In this document: in pieces, positions 2,006-21,176 of the stretch | How positions within the stretch are numbered: position 1 is the stretch's first letter | Layout: each line of letters begins with the position of its first letter | IMG/VR virus record: IMGVR_UViG_3300035698_008165 | Location: 1-21,990 of that record | Reading direction: 5' to 3' (one strand) | Source of the DNA: a virus | DNA: 21,990 nt | Position numbers and translations under genes: made by a program | Notes under the pieces: generated by a model | Told to the model about the DNA's origin: nothing | Databases searched by the model: none | What the model saw: only the letters and a program-made list of their open reading frames with translations

Positions 2006-2448
2006 TGCCGGGCGGAAAAGGAAATATAAGACCAGAGGACGGTAAGCAATTTAGCTCCGATTATCAACCACAAGAAAAATGGCCGGAAGAAAGAGCTATT
2101 GAACTGGGTGAGGATTTAATTAAATGGTTAAATGAGAAAACAGAGGAGAGTGAAGATAAAGGGAATATATTCTTTGAAGAGTACCTTATTATTAAAAGAG
2201 ATTTACACCCCAATATTATAAGTTATTTAACTAAAAAATTTACGTCGTTTAGTGAGTTGATTAGGAAAGCTGGTAAAATACAAGAAATAAAGTTAGTTAA
2301 ATATGGCGTTGCAGATAGACTTCAACCAGCTATGACAAAGTTTGTTTTAACTAATCATCATGGTTATAAAGATAGGCAAGAGCAGGAAGTAAAGAAGATG
2401 GACGTGGTCGAATACAAGAATGTCTCAAAGCAATTCCCAGACAAATGA
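2005..2448 (+). CDS. terS: Terminase small subunit
   Basis: This 147-residue protein would recognise phage DNA and regulate the large terminase during packaging. The N-terminus is Gly- and Lys-rich (MPGGKGNI and on), a DUF5681-like tail common in phage DNA-binding proteins. The C-terminal half contains a helical segment followed by GVADRLQPAMTKFVLTNHHG (residues about 101-120) and GYKDRQE, a signature seen in many small terminases. It sits directly before the large subunit with an ATGA overlap at 2445. No clear helix-turn-helix is visible by eye, so the call rests on the C-terminal signature and on position. Confidence 0.8.
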   Translation: MPGGKGNIRPEDGKQFSSDYQPQEKWPEERAIELGEDLIKWLNEKTEESEDKGNIFFEEYLIIKRDLHPNIISYLTKKFTSFSELIRKAGKIQEIKLVKYGVADRLQPAMTKFVLTNHHGYKDRQEQEVKKMDVVEYKNVSKQFPDK

Positions 2449-3632
2449 TCTCCAGGACATCCACATATTACAAGATCAGAGACATCAAAGCTAAGATTAA
2501 AGTAGTTCAGGGAGGCCAGGGTGCCGGTAAGAACATATCTATAGCTCAGATACTACTTGAGGACTGCCAGCGAGACAAGGACATTACAACCGTGATGTCC
2601 AACACTTACGATAATTTAAAGGACGGTGCAATAGCTGACTTCAAATTCCTATACGATGAGATGGGATTGGATTGGGACCGGGATTACAATAAGACTGAAC
2701 ATAATTTATTTCATTGTGGGGGAGTTATTCAGTTCCGGTATATATCTGATATCAGAAGGCAGGCTGGTAAGTCTAAACGGAGGAATAAGCTATACCTGAA
2801 CGAGTGCAACAAGATGGGATGGGAGGTTGCATCCACGTATATAGGCAGAACACACGGTGATGTATACCTGGATTACAACCCTGATTTTGAATTCTGGGCG
2901 CATACTGAAGTTCCTAAATTAAAAGATGATAAAGGTAATTCAATCAGTAATCAGATCATAGTTACATATATTGATAACGAGATGTGTCCTCAATCAGAGG
3001 TTGACTACATACTATCAAGAAAGGACAATACGGAATGGTTCAGGGTGTACGGGCTTGGTAACACAGGTTATTACTCTGAGAGGCGGATATATTCATACAG
3101 CTGGATAGAGAAACCACCAGATGACGCAAGGCGTATCCCTTCAGGTATGGACTTTGGGGTATCACCAGATCCAACTGTTCTGATTGACATATGGAAAAAG
3201 GATGACAATTTATATGTTGATGAAGTGTTTTCACTAAACAACCTGATGCCTGAGAAGATAAAAGGATCTGAAAGGATGTCTATTGTCGATCAGATGTTAT
3301 TTGTTGAGCACAATAAAGGGCAGATAATCATCGCTGACAGTGCAGGGGCTACTGAGATCAGAGACCTTAAGAAGCATTTCTACAACGTAAGGGGCGTTAA
3401 AAAGACTCCTGGATCAGTGATTGACGGGATCAATAAGACCAGAGGTTACAACATATTTTTAACCAAGCGATCAATCAGCATGAAAAACGGTATTGAAAAA
3501 TGGTTCTGGAAGGTTGATATTAACGGAAAGATAATCCCAGAACCAGAAGGACATGAGCCAGACGGATTAGCCGCACTGAGGTATGTAGTGATGGAGCATG
3601 AACGATTCTCAAGATCCCAGGTATGGCATTAA
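2445..3632 (+). CDS. terL: Terminase large subunit (PBSX / Terminase_3 type)
   Basis: The 395-residue motor and nuclease of DNA packaging, at normal family length. The N-terminal ATPase has a Walker A-like loop GGQGAGKN at 23-30, a Walker B strand KLYLNEC at 115-121 (the family often has an N-E pair in place of D-E) and a YLDYNP segment at 142-146. The C-terminal RNase H-like nuclease shows three acidic positions: Asp236 in MDFG, Asp298 in IADSAG and Asp373 in EPDGLAALRY. Oddly, the residue after the P-loop lysine is Asn rather than Ser or Thr. The next gene overlaps its end by 10 bases. No portal gene follows, which is unusual. Confidence 0.95.
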   Translation: MISRTSTYYKIRDIKAKIKVVQGGQGAGKNISIAQILLEDCQRDKDITTVMSNTYDNLKDGAIADFKFLYDEMGLDWDRDYNKTEHNLFHCGGVIQFRYISDIRRQAGKSKRRNKLYLNECNKMGWEVASTYIGRTHGDVYLDYNPDFEFWAHTEVPKLKDDKGNSISNQIIVTYIDNEMCPQSEVDYILSRKDNTEWFRVYGLGNTGYYSERRIYSYSWIEKPPDDARRIPSGMDFGVSPDPTVLIDIWKKDDNLYVDEVFSLNNLMPEKIKGSERMSIVDQMLFVEHNKGQIIIADSAGATEIRDLKKHFYNVRGVKKTPGSVIDGINKTRGYNIFLTKRSISMKNGIEKWFWKVDINGKIIPEPEGHEPDGLAALRYVVMEHERFSRSQVWH

Positions 3633-6514: not shown

Positions 6515-6702
6515 TTGAATGTCCTAAAGTAACAACAGATTTTTTAAAAGAATGTCATCCTGGATATCAAGAACCATTTAGTATTTCTATTAGGCGAGTA
6601 AGCAAATGTCTTTTTAGTAGACGTTTGGGCTTCCAGGGAAATAGGATATTTGGATTGTCGGTATGTATTAGATTATTTGGATTCAATATAACTAAGACTT
6701 AA
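6511..6702 (+). CDS. Small basic hypothetical protein, 63 aa
   Basis: A 63-residue basic ORF beginning at an ATGA overlap with the gene before it and ending one base before the ATG of the tail gene at 6704. It contains three Cys and several Arg-Phe pairs but no recognisable motif. Coding status rests on position and lack of any gap. Confidence is moderate because the composition is not distinctive. Confidence 0.45.
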   Translation: MIECPKVTTDFLKECHPGYQEPFSISIRRVSKCLFSRRLGFQGNRIFGLSVCIRLFGFNITKT

Positions 6703-6703
6703 A

Positions 6704-7675
6704 ATGATTACACTAATTTCAACACCCGAATATGCCGATCCTGCCGATCCTGCTGTGATATGCAGATGGCTCGCAACGGAAAGCCCGAACAACTTCAGGT
6801 TCCTCAGGACTGATTGGGTATGTGTTGGTGCAGATAATGCAGGGTTTTTAAGGCTGACCGTTGGTGAAGATTACATCGGTAGCGATGAGAATGTGATAGC
6901 TGTTTATTGTTCTGCAACTAATCAGATGTACGTGGGCGCAGTAACGAATGTTGATGTGACACTCAGGGTAATTGATACTGATATTGTATGGGTAGCTACA
7001 ATGAACATTACATATCTCAATGATAACTCACTTTATGGAGGGTATTATTTTGAAGGCAGGTTGACAATCGATGATATTATCTATCCGCTCACTATTATAG
7101 CCTCCCCTGATTCATTCGGATATGGAGACTTAGATGTATCGGGTATTCTAAGGATAGTAACGGCACTGGGTAAAACAGGTGATTACACTGATCGGATAAT
7201 GAGTGAACCTACCAAGTCAGGCAGATTCAATTTCGAGTACAGGGCCGCATGGTATGGCTCAGATAATGACTGGGAGGGCGTTGCGATAACTTCACCTCCT
7301 GCTTCACCTCCTATACTAATTGACTGGTACTATGGTGAGTCAGTACGAAGCGAAGAACAGGGATCAAATCTACATGAGTACGTTGCTGATGAGCTTAATG
7401 ATGCACCGTTTTTTAATGCCTTTGACCGACCTGTTTACTTTCTTGGACTACCATTCGACCTATCCTTTATCATGCCTGAGGTGGCTGAGATTTCACCAGT
7501 ATCAGATATTCATGTTCAGATCAAGATATACGATTCAAATAATTTACTGCTTGATACGATTGACGAAGATGTACCGGCTGATGATCTTGAAGGATATATC
7601 TGTAGTTTGAATATTGACGAGACTGAGATACCAGAGAATGCTGATCATATGACAGCAGAAATAACAACACCATAA
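6704..7675 (+). CDS. Tail structural protein, 323 aa
   Basis: An acidic, beta-rich protein of 323 residues, Asp-rich throughout, with almost no Lys in long stretches. The C-terminal third contains a segment (about 225-262) with NLHEYVADELN followed by a PVYFLGLPFDLSFI motif, which I recall from uncharacterised Bacteroidota phage virion proteins, and then an Ig-like run of strands (VQIKIYDSNNLLLD). An N-terminal ADPADPA repeat is encoded by a tandem gccgatcct. Location upstream of the adhesins and tape measure gene suggests a tail component; which one cannot be decided. Confidence 0.6.
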   Translation: MITLISTPEYADPADPAVICRWLATESPNNFRFLRTDWVCVGADNAGFLRLTVGEDYIGSDENVIAVYCSATNQMYVGAVTNVDVTLRVIDTDIVWVATMNITYLNDNSLYGGYYFEGRLTIDDIIYPLTIIASPDSFGYGDLDVSGILRIVTALGKTGDYTDRIMSEPTKSGRFNFEYRAAWYGSDNDWEGVAITSPPASPPILIDWYYGESVRSEEQGSNLHEYVADELNDAPFFNAFDRPVYFLGLPFDLSFIMPEVAEISPVSDIHVQIKIYDSNNLLLDTIDEDVPADDLEGYICSLNIDETEIPENADHMTAEITTP

Positions 7676-12682: not shown

Positions 12683-15460
12683 ATGGCAACAGAACAGAAA
12701 AAATATCTCATAAATGTAGAAAGCAACCTTGACAAGTATTCCAAAGAGGCTGCTAATGCGAAGAAAAATGTTGATACTCTCAAGGCTAGTAATGAAAAAC
12801 TAAAAGCCGGAGGCAAGGCTACAACAGCAGAGATTGAAAAAAGCAATGCAGCTCTCCGGAATGCTCAAGCAGAATACCGTAAGTCGAAGAAACTTGTTGA
12901 CCTGCAAACACAGGCTAACCTTTCAAACGTAGGTAGCAGAAAGCAGCTTAATGCAATAGTCGCAATCGAACAACAACGATTGGGAAAGCTAACAAATACG
13001 ATTGTAGCAAATTCAAAAGGTGTTAGGGTATTATCTGCTGACTATATTAAGCAAAAGCAGGCACTGGCACAGGCAAAAGGAGCTGTCATAGCTTACGATG
13101 GAGCGCAAAAGGACGGACGCTCAAACGTTGGACGCTACTCGGCAAGTCTTGCAAAAATGGGCAAAAGCTTATTGCAGACAATGGGAGTGTTTTCAGCAGG
13201 GACTATAATATTAAGAGCCTTTTTTAATGTTATAAAGAACGGCTTTAAGACCACGTTCAACTTTGAAAAATCAATGTCCACAGTTCAGGCTATCTTAAGG
13301 GTGACTAAAGATGAGATGGTTGAACTGCGCCAGAGTGCTATTGAGCTTGGTTCAGCTACTAAGTTTACAGCTACAGAGGTTGCGGGGCTTCAGAAAGAAT
13401 ATGCCAAATTAGGCTTTACGATGTTTGAGATCAAGAACATCACAAGAGATACACTTGATCTTGCAGCTGCTTCAGGCTCAGAATTATCAGAAACAGCATC
13501 CATCGTAGGATCAACCATGAGACAGTTCAATCTTGACGCCACAGAGTCAGCAATGGTGGTGGATACTATGTCACTTGGTTTCAGTACCTCTGCTCTGGAC
13601 ATGGAGAAATTTAAAGTCGGTATGTCAAAGGCTGGACCTGTTGCGGCCTCGTTTGGGAATTCTCTACAAAGAACAACAGCCGAATTAGGGACTTTGGCTA
13701 ATGCTGGACTTGACGCTTCAACATCAGGAACATCATTAAGGAATATATATCTTGAGCTATCTAAAAGAGGCTTGACATGGGATGAGGCTATGAATAAAAT
13801 TAGCTCATCACAGAATGCCGCAGCCACATCATTCGATTTATTTGGTAAACGTGGAGCTGTTGCCGGACTAATACTTGCTGAAAATACTGACACTATCGTT
13901 GAATATACCGAAGAACTTACCGCCGCTGACGGGGTGACAAAAGACATGGCTGATACAATGCTTGACAATGTTTCCGGTTCTATGACTATATTCAAATCAG
14001 CATGGGAAGGCTTGATCCTGAGAACAGGACAGTCAACAGGGGAGCTACAGGAATACATAGAGTCTTTAACCGATCTGGTTTCAATGATAAATACAGACGG
14101 CAAACCTGCGCTAGATTCTTTATTTGAGACAAAACAGATTGATAACTTTCTGTCAAGAGCTAAACTATTCAGGGATACCGGACAGGGATTCATTGGATCA
14201 TGGTCAGCAGCAAGACAGACTACAAATAAACAGGTTCAAGAAATGCTTGATAAATTTCAGGCTGTTGAGCAAAAAAGAAGGGATATTGAAAAGAAAGCTA
14301 ATGAAGCAAGATTAAAAGAGGAGGCAGAGATAGCAAGAGCGAAAAAACAAAAACTTATTGATGCTCAAGCAGCTATTGACGCCCTTGAACTTGCTGAGAA
14401 GTTAGCAGAAGCCGATAGGCGTGTACTGCTTGAACTCCGTAAACTACAGGCCAAAGATGATATTAAAGCAATGAAGCAGGTATTAGCTGATGAATTAGCT
14501 GCTGATCTTGAAAATATTGAATTAACCAATAACCAGAGATTGCTACTGCGAGAGAAATATCTTCAGGCCGTTGCAGCATTAGACTTAAAGGCCGCTAAAG
14601 AGAGGGAAAAGCTAGAGGATGACGCAGCCAGTAAAGCTGCAAAAGAGCTTAAAATACTGGAAGCAAAAGCAAAAGCAGAGGCCGATCTACTGCGTGAACA
14701 ATACGCTATCGAGAGACAGATAGATGCTGAGATCGCTGACATCGAAAAGAATAGCCTATTAACTAATGCTGAACTGAGATTACAAATAGCTGAACTATCA
14801 AGTACCGATCTGTTTGATGTTGAAATGCAGCGGCTTGAAATGTTAATGAATGCTGAGATAGAAGCAGCTGACGGCACAGGTATTGAGACTAATCTTATAT
14901 ATGAAAAGTATGCTCTGCTGAGATCACAGATAGATCAACAGGAATCAGATGCTAAACTTGCTTTGTACGGTGGATTTGCTGCGAACATCGCTCAGATATT
15001 TGGAGAAAACACAGCAATAGGAAAGGCCGCTGCAGTGGCAAGTACAACAATCGCTACATATGAAGCCGCTATGCAGGCTTACAAATCTATGGTCGGAATA
15101 CCTATCGCTGGACCTGTTCTTGCTGTAGCAGCCGCAGGGGCAGCCGTAGCAACAGGGATAGCAAGTGTCAAGAAGATACTAGCGGTTGATATCCCAGGCG
15201 AAGGTGGTGGAGGCGGAGCAGCACCAACGCCAATTAAGGCACAACAGCCTCGAGCGTTAGCCGCTCCCGTTAGTGCGACATTCTTTACTCAGCCCCAGTT
15301 GACTCAGGCAGATCTTAACGCTGCGCCAAATCAAAACGCTTTGACTCCTGAGGCACTTGCACTGGCTATAAGCGAACTACCAAATCCGATTGTAACAGTT
15401 GAGGATATAAACGCAAGAACACACGATAAAACAAAAGTAGAAGTAAGGGCAATCATATGA
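12683..15460 (+). CDS. Tail tape measure protein (TP901 type)
   Basis: A 925-residue tape measure protein, which sets tail length and helps DNA enter the host. Coiled coil occupies about residues 10-140. Residues about 190-445 match the TP901 core: FEKSMSTVQAIL, SATKFTATEVAGLQKEYAKL, a small-residue-rich middle and FDLFGKRGAVAGL. A long Lys/Glu/Ala coiled coil spans about 515-760. Near the end (about 800-865) two hydrophobic Ala-rich helices could insert into a membrane, followed by a Gly/Pro/Ala linker. By the rule of thumb of about 0.15 nm per residue the tail would be near 140 nm, arguing for a long-tailed phage. The next gene overlaps by 4 bases. Confidence 0.93.
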   Translation: MATEQKKYLINVESNLDKYSKEAANAKKNVDTLKASNEKLKAGGKATTAEIEKSNAALRNAQAEYRKSKKLVDLQTQANLSNVGSRKQLNAIVAIEQQRLGKLTNTIVANSKGVRVLSADYIKQKQALAQAKGAVIAYDGAQKDGRSNVGRYSASLAKMGKSLLQTMGVFSAGTIILRAFFNVIKNGFKTTFNFEKSMSTVQAILRVTKDEMVELRQSAIELGSATKFTATEVAGLQKEYAKLGFTMFEIKNITRDTLDLAAASGSELSETASIVGSTMRQFNLDATESAMVVDTMSLGFSTSALDMEKFKVGMSKAGPVAASFGNSLQRTTAELGTLANAGLDASTSGTSLRNIYLELSKRGLTWDEAMNKISSSQNAAATSFDLFGKRGAVAGLILAENTDTIVEYTEELTAADGVTKDMADTMLDNVSGSMTIFKSAWEGLILRTGQSTGELQEYIESLTDLVSMINTDGKPALDSLFETKQIDNFLSRAKLFRDTGQGFIGSWSAARQTTNKQVQEMLDKFQAVEQKRRDIEKKANEARLKEEAEIARAKKQKLIDAQAAIDALELAEKLAEADRRVLLELRKLQAKDDIKAMKQVLADELAADLENIELTNNQRLLLREKYLQAVAALDLKAAKEREKLEDDAASKAAKELKILEAKAKAEADLLREQYAIERQIDAEIADIEKNSLLTNAELRLQIAELSSTDLFDVEMQRLEMLMNAEIEAADGTGIETNLIYEKYALLRSQIDQQESDAKLALYGGFAANIAQIFGENTAIGKAAAVASTTIATYEAAMQAYKSMVGIPIAGPVLAVAAAGAAVATGIASVKKILAVDIPGEGGGGGAAPTPIKAQQPRALAAPVSATFFTQPQLTQADLNAAPNQNALTPEALALAISELPNPIVTVEDINARTHDKTKVEVRAII

Positions 15461-15687
15461 CAGTATTTGAATACATAGGCAAGAATTATGAGAGGATTAA
15501 AAAAGATGTTAAAATAGGTATTACATCTTACAGCGTTTTAAAACATTGGCTAATCTATTCCCGGTATGACTATTACAGAAAGACAGGTAGCAAGGTTAGT
15601 ATAGCTGTGCTTTGTGCAGCAACGGATAATAGGGTTTCTGAAAATTGGGTGTATGCAATAATTAAAAAAATGGAGGCAGAAGCATGA
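15457..15687 (+). CDS. Small hypothetical protein linking tail and glycan genes
   Basis: A 76-residue, basic, helical protein coupled by ATGA to the tape measure gene before it and to the glycosyltransferase after it. The C-terminal half (VSIAVLCAATDNRVSENWVYAIIKKMEAE) looks like a helical DNA-binding or small-domain fold, perhaps helix-turn-helix like, but the evidence is weak. No family recognised. Its coupling on both sides makes the glycan cluster continuous with the late structural operon. Confidence 0.6.
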   Translation: MTVFEYIGKNYERIKKDVKIGITSYSVLKHWLIYSRYDYYRKTGSKVSIAVLCAATDNRVSENWVYAIIKKMEAEA

Positions 15688-16613
15688 AAGTAATCATGCT
15701 ATCGACTATTGACTATGCGGGGTCAGGATATAAAACATTCCATGCAATAAAACGGCACACCGATATTGATATTAATTTATTCACAGGTAAGCCCGATAAT
15801 AATCTAAAGCATCCTATCCACAATTTAGTAGTCTCATCCAACCGCCCAGCCGTTCAGGGGCTTGTAAACGAGGCCGATATACTTCACTTTAAAGGCGATT
15901 GGCCGCCTGTAGATGGGTATTTAGGATTAGCTATCCCTGACAAGCCTATAATTATTACTGTTTCTGGATCGTTCTTTCGTAAAAAGGAACACGGAGGACT
16001 AGGGGCGTATAGCTGGGTTGATTACACCAGGGCAACTCTTAAAACGTCATTTGAAACCGATCTCTTATATCCTGAGTATTCTGATATATGGACTCCGCAT
16101 CCTATCGACTCAGATGAGAAGCCTAATATTTGGGAGCCTAAAGAAAGACCTTTATTCCTACATATACCTAGCACGGCAGCAAGGAAAGGAACCGTATTTG
16201 TACAAAAAGTGTTTGACGTATTAAAGCAATTAATTGATTGTGATGCGCAGATAATCCAGGGAGTTGATTTTCAAACAAGCCTCGAATTAAAGAAGAAATG
16301 CACGGTGTATTTCGATCAGTTCATGGTTGGATTCTATGGTAACTCAGCCCTTGAAGCAATGCAGTGGGGTATACCTGTTGTCAACTGGTTATCTCCAATG
16401 GCAATTAAGCAAGGCAAAGGACAGTTAAACGGATGTCCTATACTGAATCAGGATCAATCAGATCCTTATGAAACAGCAAAACAGGTCATACTGAAATTAA
16501 GAGATGGGAATAAGTGGAGTATGGAAACAAAAACATGGTGTGACAATATTCATGGTTATAAATCAATAGCAAAAAAATGGAAGCGTATATATGAACACTT
16601 ATTTAAAGGCTAA
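15684..16613 (+). CDS. Glycosyltransferase, GT-B fold (GT4-like)
   Basis: A 309-residue enzyme expected to move a sugar from a nucleotide donor to an acceptor. The N-terminal half is Rossmann-like, beginning MKVIMLSTIDYAGSGY, with HFKGDWPP near 68-75 and SGSFFRKKEHGG around 94-105. The C-terminal half has LHIPSTAARKGT (159-170), the usual start of the second domain, and GFYGNSALEAMQWGIPVV (216-233), where Glu224 falls in the donor-binding EX-type motif of GT4-like enzymes. It is somewhat short for GT4 (commonly 350-400). The PanD-like gene starts inside its 3' end, overlapping by 23 bases. Confidence 0.8.
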   Translation: MKVIMLSTIDYAGSGYKTFHAIKRHTDIDINLFTGKPDNNLKHPIHNLVVSSNRPAVQGLVNEADILHFKGDWPPVDGYLGLAIPDKPIIITVSGSFFRKKEHGGLGAYSWVDYTRATLKTSFETDLLYPEYSDIWTPHPIDSDEKPNIWEPKERPLFLHIPSTAARKGTVFVQKVFDVLKQLIDCDAQIIQGVDFQTSLELKKKCTVYFDQFMVGFYGNSALEAMQWGIPVVNWLSPMAIKQGKGQLNGCPILNQDQSDPYETAKQVILKLRDGNKWSMETKTWCDNIHGYKSIAKKWKRIYEHLFKG

Positions 16614-16893
16614 AACGACACTTAATATTACAGGATGCGAGGTTGAATATAAGGGTAGTCTTACACTTGACCAGGACTTAATGGATAAGCTCGGAGTAGT
16701 AACCGGGGAGCAGGTATTTGTTAATTCCAAATATGGAATGAGTCGCATAATGACATACTTAATTCCCGGAAAAAGAGGATCAGGAGCATGTGAAGTTAAC
16801 GGCGGAGCGGCTAATCATTTTGAGATAGGCGATACTGTTCACTTATTATTTTTCTCTCTATCAGATAAACCGATAAAATCTATCGTGTTATGA
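16591..16893 (+). CDS. panD: PanD-like pyruvoyl-dependent aspartate 1-decarboxylase
   Basis: The 100-residue protein aligns by eye along nearly its whole length with PanD, which turns L-aspartate into beta-alanine and CO2. Conserved are Lys8 (E. coli Lys9), the self-cleavage site Gly22-Ser23 in YKGS (E. coli Gly24-Ser25), whose serine becomes the pyruvoyl cofactor, the LDQD stretch (26-29), Arg52 and Tyr56 in SRIMTY (E. coli Arg54 and Tyr58), KRGSG (61-65) and VNGGAA (69-74). It lacks about 15-25 C-terminal residues of typical PanD (115-126 residues). It overlaps the glycosyltransferase by 23 bases and the ATP-grasp gene by ATGA. Beta-alanine could feed CoA synthesis, but the context suggests use in a glycan; that is inference. 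Confidence 0.85.
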   Translation: MNTYLKAKTTLNITGCEVEYKGSLTLDQDLMDKLGVVTGEQVFVNSKYGMSRIMTYLIPGKRGSGACEVNGGAANHFEIGDTVHLLFFSLSDKPIKSIVL

Positions 16894-17693
16894 CTACTCC
16901 TAACCGTGTACTGGTTGAGTCCCGATATGCTCAAACCAAACTAGGATATTATCCTGATATAATGAACCCTAAATCATTTTCAGAGCATGTGCTTAATAAT
17001 AAGATGTTCGTTAAAAATGACCTATTAGTTCAGACAACAGATAAGGTGGCTGTAAATGAGTATGTCAAAGATCATGGATTTGAGGAAATACTAATTGAGA
17101 ACTATCATATAACTGATGATCCTGATACGATTCCTTTTGATAAGCTACCTGATGAATATATAATAAAGCCCAATCAATTATCAGGTAGTCTGTTTCATAT
17201 TAAAGGAGTGTTTGATAGGGTTAAGGTAATTGCAACATGCAGAGTATGGCTCAAGGAAACTCATTACGGAAAGAGTAGATTCGTATGGTGTACATCTCAG
17301 ATAAAGCCTAAAATCATTGTTCAGAAACTTATCGATTCATGTCCTTTGGACTATAAGTTCCATATGATACATGGAAAATGTGCCTGGGTGGGAGTCTATA
17401 ACGCTGCACATATAGGGAGCCTTGACCGATCAAATACTAATTACGACCCAAACTGGAATAAGCTCCCATTCAGTTTACAGCAGCCTCTAGGCAAGGACGT
17501 GAGTAAGCCGATGAATTACGAACGGATGATAGAGATAGCCGAAAAGTTATCAGAGCCCTTCAATTATGTCAGGGTGGATCTGTATAACATCAAAGGCAGG
17601 ATATATTTTGGTGAACTAACTCACTACCCTAATTCAGGATCAGGAAAGTTCACTCCTGAAAGTTGGGATTATAAATTTGGTAAACTATTTTAG
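16890..17693 (+). CDS. TupA-like ATP-grasp ligase
   Basis: This 267-residue protein fits the TupA-like ATP-grasp family, named for a Bacillus teichuronopeptide gene and common in polysaccharide clusters. ATP-grasp enzymes join a carboxylate to an amine through an acyl phosphate. Seen are NPKSFSEH (26-33), DKVAVNEYV (51-59), LPDEYIIKPNQLSG (86-99; usual form LPxxFVLKxNHGSG, with Lys93), DYKFHMIHGK (154-163), YVRVDLYNIKGRIYFGELTH (226-245) and YPNSGSGKF (246-254), the last two holding the likely metal ligands. The His-Gly of the usual NHGSG is replaced by Gln-Leu. It follows the PanD-like gene by a 4-base overlap. The substrates are unknown; beta-alanine is an attractive candidate. Confidence 0.82.
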   Translation: MTTPNRVLVESRYAQTKLGYYPDIMNPKSFSEHVLNNKMFVKNDLLVQTTDKVAVNEYVKDHGFEEILIENYHITDDPDTIPFDKLPDEYIIKPNQLSGSLFHIKGVFDRVKVIATCRVWLKETHYGKSRFVWCTSQIKPKIIVQKLIDSCPLDYKFHMIHGKCAWVGVYNAAHIGSLDRSNTNYDPNWNKLPFSLQQPLGKDVSKPMNYERMIEIAEKLSEPFNYVRVDLYNIKGRIYFGELTHYPNSGSGKFTPESWDYKFGKLF

Positions 17694-17695
17694 GT

Positions 17696-18571
17696 ATGAT
17701 AAAAGTATTAGTTACAGGAGTTGCAGGCTTTATTGGCAGTCACATTGCAGAGGAGTTGATACGCAGGGATGTTGTAGTAATAGGGCTGGATGATTTATCG
17801 GCAGGGTATGAAAGTAATATCCCTGAGGGAGTTATATTCTTACAAGCCGATTTATATAAGACAAATCAATGGTCTCATATGCTTAAAGGCGTTGACGCTG
17901 TATTTCATAACGCTGCATCAAAGAAAAACGTATGTCTGAAAGATCCTGCCAGGGATATGAAAGTTAACGGTATCGGAACTTATAGACTGCTAAGAGCATG
18001 TGTTGATAATAATGTTAGTAAGTTTATTCATGCCTCAACTGGATCAGTTTATGGCGAAGTTGATGGAAGGATAACCGAGGACACCCCAAGAAACCCAGTA
18101 AGCATCTACGGAATTAGCAAAATGTCTGGGGAGAATTATGTTCAGTACTTCCATAAATTCGAAGGACTTAACACAACCGTTCTCAGGTACTTTCATGTTT
18201 ACGGCGAAAGGCAGGAAAGTAGTCAGGATACAGGCGGAGTAGTTGCTATTTTCAAAAGGAAAGTACAGGCCCAGGAACCGATTACTATACATGGAGACGG
18301 TACACAAAAGAGGGTCTTTACTCATGTCTCTGATATTGTCAAGGCTAATATACAGTCATGGCACGAGTCGAAATCTGAAGGTAAGATTTATAATTGTGCT
18401 TCAGGTAAACAGACATCAGTAATTGAGTTAGCTGATTTACTAGGAGTAAAATATAATAAGAAAATTAGATACAAATATACAAACTCACTCCCCGGAGACA
18501 TTTATAATTTTGATGTTGATAATTCAAAGATCATGGAATTAGGAGTTACATTCAGACCAATAGAATTATGA
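17696..18571 (+). CDS. NAD-dependent sugar-nucleotide epimerase/dehydratase
   Basis: An extended short-chain dehydrogenase/reductase of 291 residues that would interconvert a nucleotide sugar, such as a UDP-hexose 4-epimerase. The dinucleotide-binding loop is TGVAGFIGS (7-15), with Asp32-Asp33 expected to bind the NAD ribose. Catalytic residues are Ser/Thr in HASTGSVYG (112-120) and Tyr138 and Lys142 in YGISK. Substrate-side motifs are RYFHVYGERQ (164-173) and GDGTQKRVFTHVSDIV (200-215). Length is slightly below the usual 310-340. Epimerase versus dehydratase cannot be decided by eye. It lies 2 bases after the ATP-grasp gene and overlaps the next gene by ATGA. Confidence 0.88.
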   Translation: MIKVLVTGVAGFIGSHIAEELIRRDVVVIGLDDLSAGYESNIPEGVIFLQADLYKTNQWSHMLKGVDAVFHNAASKKNVCLKDPARDMKVNGIGTYRLLRACVDNNVSKFIHASTGSVYGEVDGRITEDTPRNPVSIYGISKMSGENYVQYFHKFEGLNTTVLRYFHVYGERQESSQDTGGVVAIFKRKVQAQEPITIHGDGTQKRVFTHVSDIVKANIQSWHESKSEGKIYNCASGKQTSVIELADLLGVKYNKKIRYKYTNSLPGDIYNFDVDNSKIMELGVTFRPIEL

Positions 18572-19293
18572 AAATACTTGCCGTAGCATTCGCCTATAAT
18601 GAAATGAAGTTGATCCCAAGCTTTGTGAAATATTACAGAGATCAGGGGTGTGATATATTTGTTCTGGATAATCATTCATCAGATGGAACCAGCGAATGGC
18701 TTACCGAGAATAATGTAAGAACAGAAGTTTGTCCTACAGGTGGAATGTTTCACCTACTGAAGTTACAAAAAGGATTAGTCGATGAAATAAACAGATCAAA
18801 ACCTGACTGGGTAGTTTATACCGGGATTGATATATTCTATTCCTTTAACTCGACTATCAGAAAAACTATCGAAAGGGCTGACAAGAACGGCTATAACATG
18901 ATAGGAGTTCAACATTATAACATGCATAATACAGGGGAGCCGCCAGCATATCCTTTGCACGAAAACTATTTCCATGCACGAAAAGGTAATAGGCTTTATA
19001 TGATAAGTAAGTTTCAGGATCCGTTTGGATTTGAGGCCGATTCTATCCAGATCAAAGGGAGAAAGATATTTGAAGCTAAAGGGGTACTTGTTAATTATGG
19101 TAACTGCAAGCCAGCTGGTGAAAGAGAGGATACATTTAAACGAAGGAGAAAGGCATGGAATGCAGGGCTGGACAGGAACTATGGAGTACATTACATAGAG
19201 GGCCATAAAAGGGGCTGGATATGGAGAAGGGACGAGTTAATTGACATCAGGAAAACAGAAGATTATAAATACATACAAAAGATTAGAATATGA
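18568..19293 (+). CDS. GT2-like glycosyltransferase, atypical DxD
   Basis: A 241-residue GT-A-like protein. The N-terminus MKILAVAFAYNE (1-12) and VLDNHSSDGTSEWL (32-45) are typical of GT2 nucleotide-sugar binding. The metal-binding position reads TGIDIF (85-90), with a single Asp88 rather than a full DxD. The C-terminal region (GEREDTFKRRRKAW, about 184-197, then HKRGWIWRRDEL) is Arg-rich. Similar proteins occur in polysaccharide and phage clusters. It may work without the standard metal site, or use Asp88 alone. It is linked to its neighbours by ATGA on both sides. Confidence 0.72.
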   Translation: MKILAVAFAYNEMKLIPSFVKYYRDQGCDIFVLDNHSSDGTSEWLTENNVRTEVCPTGGMFHLLKLQKGLVDEINRSKPDWVVYTGIDIFYSFNSTIRKTIERADKNGYNMIGVQHYNMHNTGEPPAYPLHENYFHARKGNRLYMISKFQDPFGFEADSIQIKGRKIFEAKGVLVNYGNCKPAGEREDTFKRRRKAWNAGLDRNYGVHYIEGHKRGWIWRRDELIDIRKTEDYKYIQKIRI

Positions 19294-20048
19294 TTGCACT
19301 GATTACGCCGACCGGAGCCCGAAAGTCTCAATTTGAATTATGTAAACGATGGATGAATAGACAAACATATCAAGGCGAAGTGGTCTGGATAATAGTAGAT
19401 GACGCACTCCCCTCGACAATACAAGATGACGGTTACGTATTTATGAAACGCTGGACAATCGTTAAAATCTACCCTACTCCTGTATGGTCAGGAAAGAACA
19501 CTCAGGCTAGAAATATAAAGGCCGGGATTGATTATGTTAAAAAGACTTACACGAAAGACGACATTGAGGCTATATTTATTATCGAAGATGACGACTATTA
19601 TAAGCCCGTTTACCTTGAGCGAATGATGGCCCGAATGGGTGATTATGATCTACTGGGAGAAACCAACACGATATATTATAATGTTCAGTGGCGAAGGTTT
19701 ATTACTAACCCAAACCGGCATCATGCAAGCCTGTTTCAGACAGCATTTACTTATGATTTCATTCCAACATTTGAGCTTTGTTATCCTGATAAATTCATAG
19801 ATGCCAAGGCGTGGAAATTAGGTAAGAACAAACATCTGTTTTTTGAGGACTTCTTATCGCTGGGCATGAAAGGGATGCCAGGAAGGGGCGGAATAGGAGC
19901 AGGCCACAGACTTGCAATGGCTATGTCGAATGACTTATCAATGAATTTTTTAACAAAACATATAGGAAAAGATGCAAAATTCTATCAAGGATATTACAGC
20001 AATAGTAGTAAGCCACAACACTCGAGATTTACTACAAAACGCCATTAA
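19290..20048 (+). CDS. GT-A-like glycosyltransferase (GT2 type)
   Basis: A 252-residue enzyme starting MIALITPTGARKSQFELCKR, then WIIVDDALP (33-41), the usual nucleotide-binding strand. The metal-binding motif is FIIEDDDYY (96-104), a good DxD. The end of the protein contains GRGGIGAGHR (198-207) and a Lys- and His-rich tail. The last 77 bases overlap the following gene, which is read in another frame. The donor and acceptor are unknown. Confidence 0.75.
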   Translation: MIALITPTGARKSQFELCKRWMNRQTYQGEVVWIIVDDALPSTIQDDGYVFMKRWTIVKIYPTPVWSGKNTQARNIKAGIDYVKKTYTKDDIEAIFIIEDDDYYKPVYLERMMARMGDYDLLGETNTIYYNVQWRRFITNPNRHHASLFQTAFTYDFIPTFELCYPDKFIDAKAWKLGKNKHLFFEDFLSLGMKGMPGRGGIGAGHRLAMAMSNDLSMNFLTKHIGKDAKFYQGYYSNSSKPQHSRFTTKRH

Positions 20049-20679
20049 ATCTGTCAGGAAATTCCACCCTGATATGAAGATCATGATAATTGACGGCTCG
20101 GATAAAACTGATCCATGCTACTCATACGCAATATCATTGGCTTCAGATGTTACAGATGTTTACCCGTGTGGCTATAATATAGGACACGGTAGAGGGATGC
20201 ATATGGGAATTAAGGAATGTGAAACTAAGTTTGCTCTGATATTTGATTCAGATATAGTGATGCTTAAAAGCCCTGTACAGAAGATGCTTGATATGATGGA
20301 GCCAGATACTTATGGAGTCGGGTATCTGGAAAAGTCTGCATATGACGGTTATGAATACGGGGCTAAGCCACAGCATAAAAATCAGCCTTTTATGTACATG
20401 CTACATCCTTTTTTCCATCTATTACAGATCTCAGAGTATTATAAGTTCGCTCCTTATGTTCACCACGGGGCCCCTTGTTTTAAGGCTGCTCGGGATATTC
20501 ATTTGAAAGGATTGACTGATAAAATAATCAAACGGTTTCCGGGATTAGGACATACTCATGGTAAAGGATTTGTTTGGTCAGCCGTTCCCGGCGAATGGAT
20601 TAAACACGATACAGCCGGGACCAGAAAGTCAAGAGTTAAAAGAGGCAAACAAGAAATCGAACAGGGATGGGAATTATAG
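19972..20679 (+). CDS. GT2-like glycosyltransferase
   Basis: A 235-residue protein with a GT-A fold signature: ITAIVVSHNTRDLLQNAIKS (8-27) is the classic GT2 N-terminus, MIIDGSDKTD (38-47) the nucleotide-binding segment, YNIGHGRGMHMGI (68-80) and ALIFDSDIVML (88-98) with DSD as DxD. GHTHGKG (193-199) and HDTAGTR (212-218) are frequent in related phage GTs. The only ATG giving the conserved N-terminal strand is at 19972, inside the previous gene, making a 77-base overlap; no later ATG, GTG or TTG preserves that strand. The next gene overlaps by 13 bases. Confidence 0.78.
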   Translation: MQNSIKDITAIVVSHNTRDLLQNAIKSVRKFHPDMKIMIIDGSDKTDPCYSYAISLASDVTDVYPCGYNIGHGRGMHMGIKECETKFALIFDSDIVMLKSPVQKMLDMMEPDTYGVGYLEKSAYDGYEYGAKPQHKNQPFMYMLHPFFHLLQISEYYKFAPYVHHGAPCFKAARDIHLKGLTDKIIKRFPGLGHTHGKGFVWSAVPGEWIKHDTAGTRKSRVKRGKQEIEQGWEL

Positions 20680-21176
20680 CAGTACTTGGTATTGGCCCTT
20701 CAAAGGATTTATTCAAACCTGACGGCTTTGATAAGGTGATCGGAGTCAACGATATTTGGAGATTCTACGAAACCGATGTGATAGTCTGCCTAGATAAGAC
20801 TAAGGCATTTACTCCTGATCGGTTAAAGGTTATCAATAACAGCAAACCTGAGGCGTTCTATTCTCAAATAGTGAACTGGGATACTCGCAGCGATTTTGTT
20901 AAGCTTAATATCAAACCTGGATACCCTGACGGAGCGTGCATACTTGAGCCGTACGTTATGGTAAAGTCATTCTTTAGTCCATACGTTGCTTGTCAGGTAG
21001 CATTCTGGTATTACGGGGCCACTGAAATACACTTATTTGGCGTTGATATGACTAATCATCCACACCTTAACGGTACTCTCTGCGCTAAGATTAAGATACA
21101 CTTTCAGCATCTCAGAACAGCACTCAAGAATAAAGGATGTGAAGTGGTAGTACATGGGGGCGGGATACTAAAATAA
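20667..21176 (+). CDS. Rossmann-like protein of phage glycan clusters
   Basis: This 169-residue protein has a nucleotide-binding-like start (IIAVLGIGPS, 3-12), an IGVNDIWRF segment, IVCLDKTKAF (39-48) and a C-terminal GATEIHLFGVDMTNHPH (about 117-133). Together these resemble the MAF/DUF115-like or sialyltransferase-like Rossmann proteins often found next to glycosyltransferases in phages and polysaccharide loci. It could be a further sugar transferase. It overlaps the preceding GT by 13 bases and is the last gene of the cluster; a new promoter starts at its stop codon. Confidence 0.62.
   Translation: MGIIAVLGIGPSKDLFKPDGFDKVIGVNDIWRFYETDVIVCLDKTKAFTPDRLKVINNSKPEAFYSQIVNWDTRSDFVKLNIKPGYPDGACILEPYVMVKSFFSPYVACQVAFWYYGATEIHLFGVDMTNHPHLNGTLCAKIKIHFQHLRTALKNKGCEVVVHGGGILK

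Follow-up and report, generated by a model that had tools for sequence, protein, structure and literature searches.

Why would a tailed phage carry an aspartate decarboxylase and an amide ligase in the middle of a set of glycosyltransferase genes, directly behind its tail tape measure gene? The question is raised by 21,990 bases of DNA from an uncultivated tailed phage, a fragment of its genome (IMG/VR record IMGVR_UViG_3300035698_008165), referred to here in full as the window. From the tape measure gene to position 21176, every gene lies on the + strand and adjacent genes overlap or are at most 2 bp apart (Table 1). Behind a small protein (p1), the order is a glycosyltransferase (p2), a PanD-like decarboxylase (p3), a TupA-like ATP-grasp ligase (p4), a sugar-nucleotide epimerase (p5), three further glycosyltransferases (p6 to p8) and a second small protein (p9), with the PanD/ATP-grasp pair internal to the run. 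A preliminary description of this DNA had proposed just such an unbroken, overlapping run with an ATGA junction within the pair, and both observations hold: the genes it named are all on the + strand where it had placed them, and p3 and p4 share an ATGA overlap at 16890-16893. As read from gene content and order in related phages, the run is a cassette for glycan synthesis, exchanged within a group of Bacteroidota-type tailed phages and lodged between tape measure/p1 and p7-p9. The fuller reading, in which this cassette amidates a sugar with beta-alanine and places the glycan on a virion protein, is more tentative: we infer its substrates, product and target, and we give the whole somewhat less than an even chance.

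The evidence for exchange comes from searches with p7 and p8, which led to some 60 viral loci. A shared backbone was found in ~15 records (the window, L002, L015, L018, L020, L023, L024, L028, L035, L038, L044, L137, L141, L148 and L150), a number that counts records on that backbone and not independent exchange events. These records have a common plan: tape measure, p1, a variable stretch, p7, usually p8 (not detected in L150), and p9. The variable stretch between p1 and p7 consists of 2-5 kb of sugar genes and is different in nearly every record, including other GT2 glycosyltransferases, GT11, a C-methyltransferase, S-adenosylmethionine (SAM) methyltransferases, a Polysacc_synt_2 dehydratase, a B12-radical SAM protein and a flavin enzyme, some recognized by profile matches and others by reading the sequences. 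Both PanD and the ATP-grasp ligase were present in two of the ~15 records, the window and L002; neither gene was found in the remaining related records. L137 has the closest core (p7-p9 74-78% identical), yet a different cassette. In L007, two methyltransferases replace the pair, flanked by homologs of p2 (61%) and the epimerase (64%), and such a substitution at the exact position of the pair would be expected of a unit that modifies sugars. By these comparisons, the pair behaves like a replaceable unit for sugar decoration. Where the preliminary description had envisaged one fixed phage pathway, the cassette of the window is instead exchangeable, and its version with the pair occurs in two related phages, in one of which the ligase is truncated. 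As an exchange hotspot for sugar-modifying genes, the p1-p7 interval seems to have a wider relevance than the PanD pair. In L028, an open reading frame (ORF) at 6701-7255 that reads by eye as a GIY-YIG homing endonuclease lies in the variable cassette just before p7 and could aid cassette exchange.

Both members of the pair appear to be catalytically conserved. The p3 protein matched PF02261 with 77.5 bits against a curated cut-off of 25, in agreement with a whole-record search, and in an alignment it retained the counterparts of E. coli Lys9, Tyr22, Gly24-Ser25, Arg54, Thr57, Tyr58 and Asn72; in PanD, the Gly-Ser pair is the processing site, Thr57 functions in activation, and Lys9 and Arg54 have substrate-related roles (PMC3975893). 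These data make p3 a member of the PanD family, though not demonstrably an equivalent of the housekeeping enzyme; it very probably acts on aspartate. The nearest cellular homolog that we found is the additional PanD copy of the Bacteroidota genome L134 (55% over 85 residues), in which all of the active-site residues are present. Bacterial PanD proteins, this copy included, have the active-site residues in common with p3, but p3 is shorter, diverged, and sits in a glycan cassette instead of a pantothenate or housekeeping context. A second, diverged PanD was observed in three of 198 Bacteroidota genomes (L134:1477-1842 on the - strand, L135 and L136), with no glycan genes in the 3.3 kb examined around these copies.

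The p4 protein matched PF14305 with 110.8 bits over profile positions 12-240 of 241, again in agreement with a whole-record search, and retained 15 of the 15 residues that are invariant among 43 homologs. A structural model (predicted local distance difference test, pLDDT, 93) had carboxylate-amine ligases of the ATP-grasp type as its closest folds (RizA, LysX/ArgX and Ddl). For these and the other enzymes of the run, family matches do not fix substrates. That a phage glycan cassette with a PanD/ATP-grasp pair lies in a late structural operon, as first proposed, is upheld, and the pair keeps its catalytic residues.

The second phage with the pair, L002, comes from a separate metagenome record and carries the tape measure, p1, p2, PanD, ATP-grasp, epimerase, p6, p7, p8 and p9 in the same order, with proteins 47-65% identical to those of the window (PanD 62% over 87 amino acids). 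The recurrence of this gene order in an independent record argues that the run is more than a chance arrangement. Scanning viral contigs with the whole ligase gave no match and scanning with its N-terminus returned L002 only; these collection scans used short exact peptide patterns, by which divergent copies may be missed. Co-occurrence of PanD and ATP-grasp genes in other phages, on which the preliminary description had staked its proposal, was therefore found in weak form, in L002 with its damaged ligase.

What could such a pair do? In the mechanism we propose, PanD would form beta-alanine from aspartate by decarboxylation; the TupA-like ligase, co-translated with it, would use ATP to form an amide between beta-alanine and a sugar carboxylate, that of a host-derived uronic acid. 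The epimerase would set the sugar, and the cytosolic glycosyltransferases would assemble the glycan, most likely on a virion structural protein. For beta-alanine amide-linked to a uronic acid, which we argue by analogy, we place the chances just short of even; in the alternative direction, the carboxylate of beta-alanine may be joined to an amino sugar, and either direction of amidation adds 71.04 Da.

The analogy is with the HS:2 capsule of Campylobacter jejuni. There, Cj1436 converts serine-phosphate to ethanolamine-phosphate by decarboxylation, and Cj1438, through its TupA-like ATP-grasp domain, links ethanolamine-phosphate or serinol-phosphate to glucuronic acid as an amide (PMC12409886, PMC11800397, PMC11800379). 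Amidation of a sugar carboxylate has been demonstrated for Cj1438C (PMC11800379) and is predicted for p4, which we liken to it at the level of the TupA-like ATP-grasp family. The C. jejuni cluster (Cj1435, Cj1436, Cj1437 and Cj1438C), like the cassette, brings together a decarboxylase, a TupA-like ligase and glycosyltransferases. The two differ in that C. jejuni relies on phosphoserine decarboxylation, or on transamination to serinol-phosphate, together with a phosphatase, and has these genes in the capsule locus of a bacterium, whereas the cassette has PanD, no phosphatase that we could see, and a phage setting. The idea of joining an amine to a carboxylated sugar, already put forward in the preliminary description, thus has a precedent in which the amine is made by a decarboxylase. 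The same precedent narrows the novelty that was claimed for it: the combination is new in a phage, but the chemistry was already known in C. jejuni. With the parts and the chemistry known, what is new is PanD in an amine-supply role, its presence in a phage, and the combination and its place. In the literature, we found no paper on PanD in phages and no description in a virus of chemistry joining beta-alanine to a sugar.

Several observations weigh against this reading. One intact PanD/ATP-grasp pair is known, that of the window; in L002, the ATP-grasp protein ends after 72 homologous residues, immediately before the epimerase, and its catalytic part is missing. PanD of L002 is out of frame after residue 87, with the PanD core kept, and the rest of the cassette is open. 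This damage was seen on one contig and could be an assembly error; L021, a second contig resembling the L002 phage, begins within the epimerase. Between the window and L002, nonsynonymous divergence (dN) was 0.31 and 0.36 for the two genes, with synonymous sites saturated or at ~2.6. Both genes thus show constraint, and the damage in L002, if real, is probably recent. Moreover, p3 falls under the NCBIfam panD equivalog cut-off (TIGR00223, 63.5 versus 106 bits) and, being diverged, could have a different substrate. PanD was absent within 8 kb of each of the 80 nearest bacterial TupA genes, which are distributed over many phyla. No uridine diphosphate (UDP)-sugar dehydrogenase or UDP-glucose dehydrogenase was recognized by Pfam in 15457-21176 of this fragmentary record, so the carboxylated acceptor is assumed to come from the host. 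The target is assigned from context. Finally, 172 of the 198 sampled Bacteroidota genomes have a PanD of their own, and a phage copy is thus not strictly needed; its presence in the phage points to a demand for the product that is local or high, or to a changed specificity.

The wide occurrence of PanD in these hosts also bears on a different explanation, in which PanD and the ATP-grasp ligase are not partners: PanD would be an auxiliary metabolic gene that boosts the beta-alanine and coenzyme A (CoA) supply of the host during infection, and the ligase would attach to the glycan some amino acid or amine provided by the host. L002, which keeps the PanD core despite its truncated ligase, is consistent with such independence, and so is PanD without ATP-grasp in other phages (L047-L050 and the phage Jace). 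Yet most of the sampled Bacteroidota already have PanD, the two genes share the ATGA junction and are present or absent together across the phage group, and it is the two adjacent genes that are damaged in L002. Furthermore, PanD lies inside a late glycan cassette, away from nucleotide-metabolism genes. We therefore consider independent functions unlikely, and it is probable that PanD and p4 work in one pathway.

The PanD proteins of Jace (NC_047974) and L047-L050 are, like p3, PF02261 members encoded by phages, but they are 36-38% identical to it, longer, and have ABC/GNAT-like, CaiB-like or nucleotide-metabolism neighbors; neither an adjacent ATP-grasp gene nor a glycan cassette accompanies them. 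L047-L050 were rejected as a parallel, being another phage type that lacks the ATP-grasp gene, and gp86 of Jace was rejected as an ATP-grasp partner of PanD, since it reads as an ATP-binding cassette (ABC)-type ATPase plus acetyltransferase. In Jace, a Rhodococcus/Gordonia phage, PanD is flanked by the ABC-ATPase/acetyltransferase-like gene on one side and a gene resembling CaiB-type CoA-transferases on the other, with a ParB-like gene nearby (L006:3892-6112, gp86-gp88). In L047:3752-8294, and in L048-L050, a full-length PanD is found downstream of two ORFs that read as acyl-adenylating (AMP-ligase) enzymes, in phages that carry ribonucleotide reductase and PhoH. PanD/ATP-grasp matches in three 'Bacteriophage sp.' entries (MT839897, MT838506 and MT835502) were rejected as bacterial-looking contigs, with panC-panD or polysaccharide clusters with ABC exporters; such labels can mislead searches for phage metabolic genes. 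Matches in Listeria, Staphylococcus, Enterococcus, Escherichia, Salmonella and Acinetobacter 'phages' were set aside as mostly unannotated assemblies and probably host DNA.

Where would the glycan be placed? On balance, a virion protein seems the somewhat more probable target. The late-operon position favors virion proteins, and glycosyltransferases stand directly behind the tape measure gene in the ~15 related records. In mycobacteriophages, virion proteins (capsid, tail tube) are glycosylated by phage glycosyltransferases, according to Freeman 2023 as cited in PMC12619734; phage-encoded enzymes modifying virion proteins is what we propose for the cassette. The cassette differs in being larger and exchangeable, in the sugar-nucleotide and amidation genes that it adds next to the tape measure gene, and in an attachment to the virion that is so far predicted.

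The cassette might instead remodel the host surface during infection, so as to exclude superinfecting phages or mask receptors, by acting on capsule, lipopolysaccharide (LPS) or surface-protein glycans. TupA-like ligases and glycosyltransferases of this kind are typical of bacterial surface-polysaccharide loci, as in the 80 TupA relatives and the C. jejuni capsule, and the alteration of surfaces by phage glycosyltransferases is a known role (noted in PMC12619734). However, neither a flippase nor a polymerase nor a phosphoglycosyltransferase was seen in the cassettes that we read, and a simple hydropathy scan revealed no obvious membrane protein and three borderline values, one of them in p1 of L018. 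The absence of clear membrane segments argues against a lipid-linked capsule/LPS route, and the site is in a late operon behind the tape measure, not in an early or lysogeny module. We judge remodeling of the host surface to be improbable. Hypermodification of the phage DNA with a glycan bearing an amide-linked amine is more improbable still. Some phages are known to have sets of glycosyltransferases that attach varied glycans to DNA (Pyle 2024, cited through PMC12619734), and the cassette enzymes all look cytosolic, as DNA modification would have it. But the cassette is coupled to tail genes, and no gene of the thymidylate-synthase/hydroxymethylase family was found in the 15 group records, several of them 44-54 kb, though these are fragments and other routes of base activation exist.

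Returning to a virion target, the most specific form of the proposal is that the phage displays beta-alanyl-amidated glycans on its virion by means of a module that methyltransferases or other sugar-modifying genes replace in its relatives. In this form it is doubtful. If it is right, the tape-measure-adjacent site would be the phage counterpart of a bacterial capsule locus, setting a variable virion 'serotype': phages would diversify a glycan much as bacteria diversify their capsules, by exchanging cassettes at one site, with amide chemistry used by one of the versions. Effects of virion glycan variation on the adsorption, recognition and ecology of phages could then be tested, and PanD, a vitamin-pathway enzyme, would have been redeployed as a supplier of glycan building blocks.

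The remaining genes of the run are consistent with glycan synthesis to different degrees. UDP-sugar 4-epimerases were among the closest solved relatives of p5, a family call that leaves its sugar product unassignable. The preliminary description had counted four glycosyltransferases: two of these, p6 and p8, passed the Pfam cut-offs, p7 had a weak match, and p2 is called from its motif only, with no family match in Pfam, PHROG or NCBIfam searches. The p8 protein had no counterpart in isolated phages. The protein earlier described as Rossmann-like, p9, is present, and its predicted fold is nearest to glycosyltransferases: the top Foldseek matches were the sialyltransferase CstII (GT42) and a MAF glycosyltransferase (E 0.002-0.025), a resemblance at the level of the fold only.

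Table 1. Genes of the window considered in this study.
Feature	Position	Strand	Basis and distribution
Terminase large subunit	2445-3632		
Tail tape measure protein, conserved left neighbor of the cassette	12683..15460	+	phrog_1533 (6.5e-56) and others; same place in ~15 related records
p1, small protein, conserved left border of the cassette	15457..15687	+	phrog_17790 (2.7e-5); between tape measure and cassette in related records
p2, probable GT-B-type glycosyltransferase	15684..16613	+	GT-B-like C-terminal motif by eye; 58-61% homologs in L002 and L007
p3, PanD-like pyruvoyl aspartate decarboxylase, 100 amino acids	16591..16893	+	PF02261 (9.7e-22)
p4, TupA-like ATP-grasp amide ligase	16890..17693	+	PF14305 (9.6e-32)
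p5, GalE-like NAD-dependent sugar-nucleotide epimerase	17696..18571	+	PF01370 (1.1e-55)
p6, GT2 glycosyltransferase (Glyco_tranf_2_4)	18568..19293	+	PF13704 (5.2e-8)
p7, probable GT-A glycosyltransferase, conserved right core	19290..20048	+	weak PF00535 (0.056); kept in related records
p8, GT2 glycosyltransferase, conserved right core	19972..20679	+	PF00535 (4.6e-13); up to 80% identity in other phages
p9, small protein with GT42/MAF-like predicted fold, conserved right core	20667..21176	+	AlphaFold2 model (pLDDT 90)

A scan of the window for promoters and terminators gave no signal exceeding that of shuffled sequences. The best matches of the tape measure protein were in Flavobacterium and Bacteroides phages, and the 805-amino acid protein that precedes it matched proteins of Elizabethkingia, Cellulophaga and Bacteroides phages. 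Since both resemble proteins of Bacteroidota phages, the host of this phage is likely a member of the Bacteroidota.

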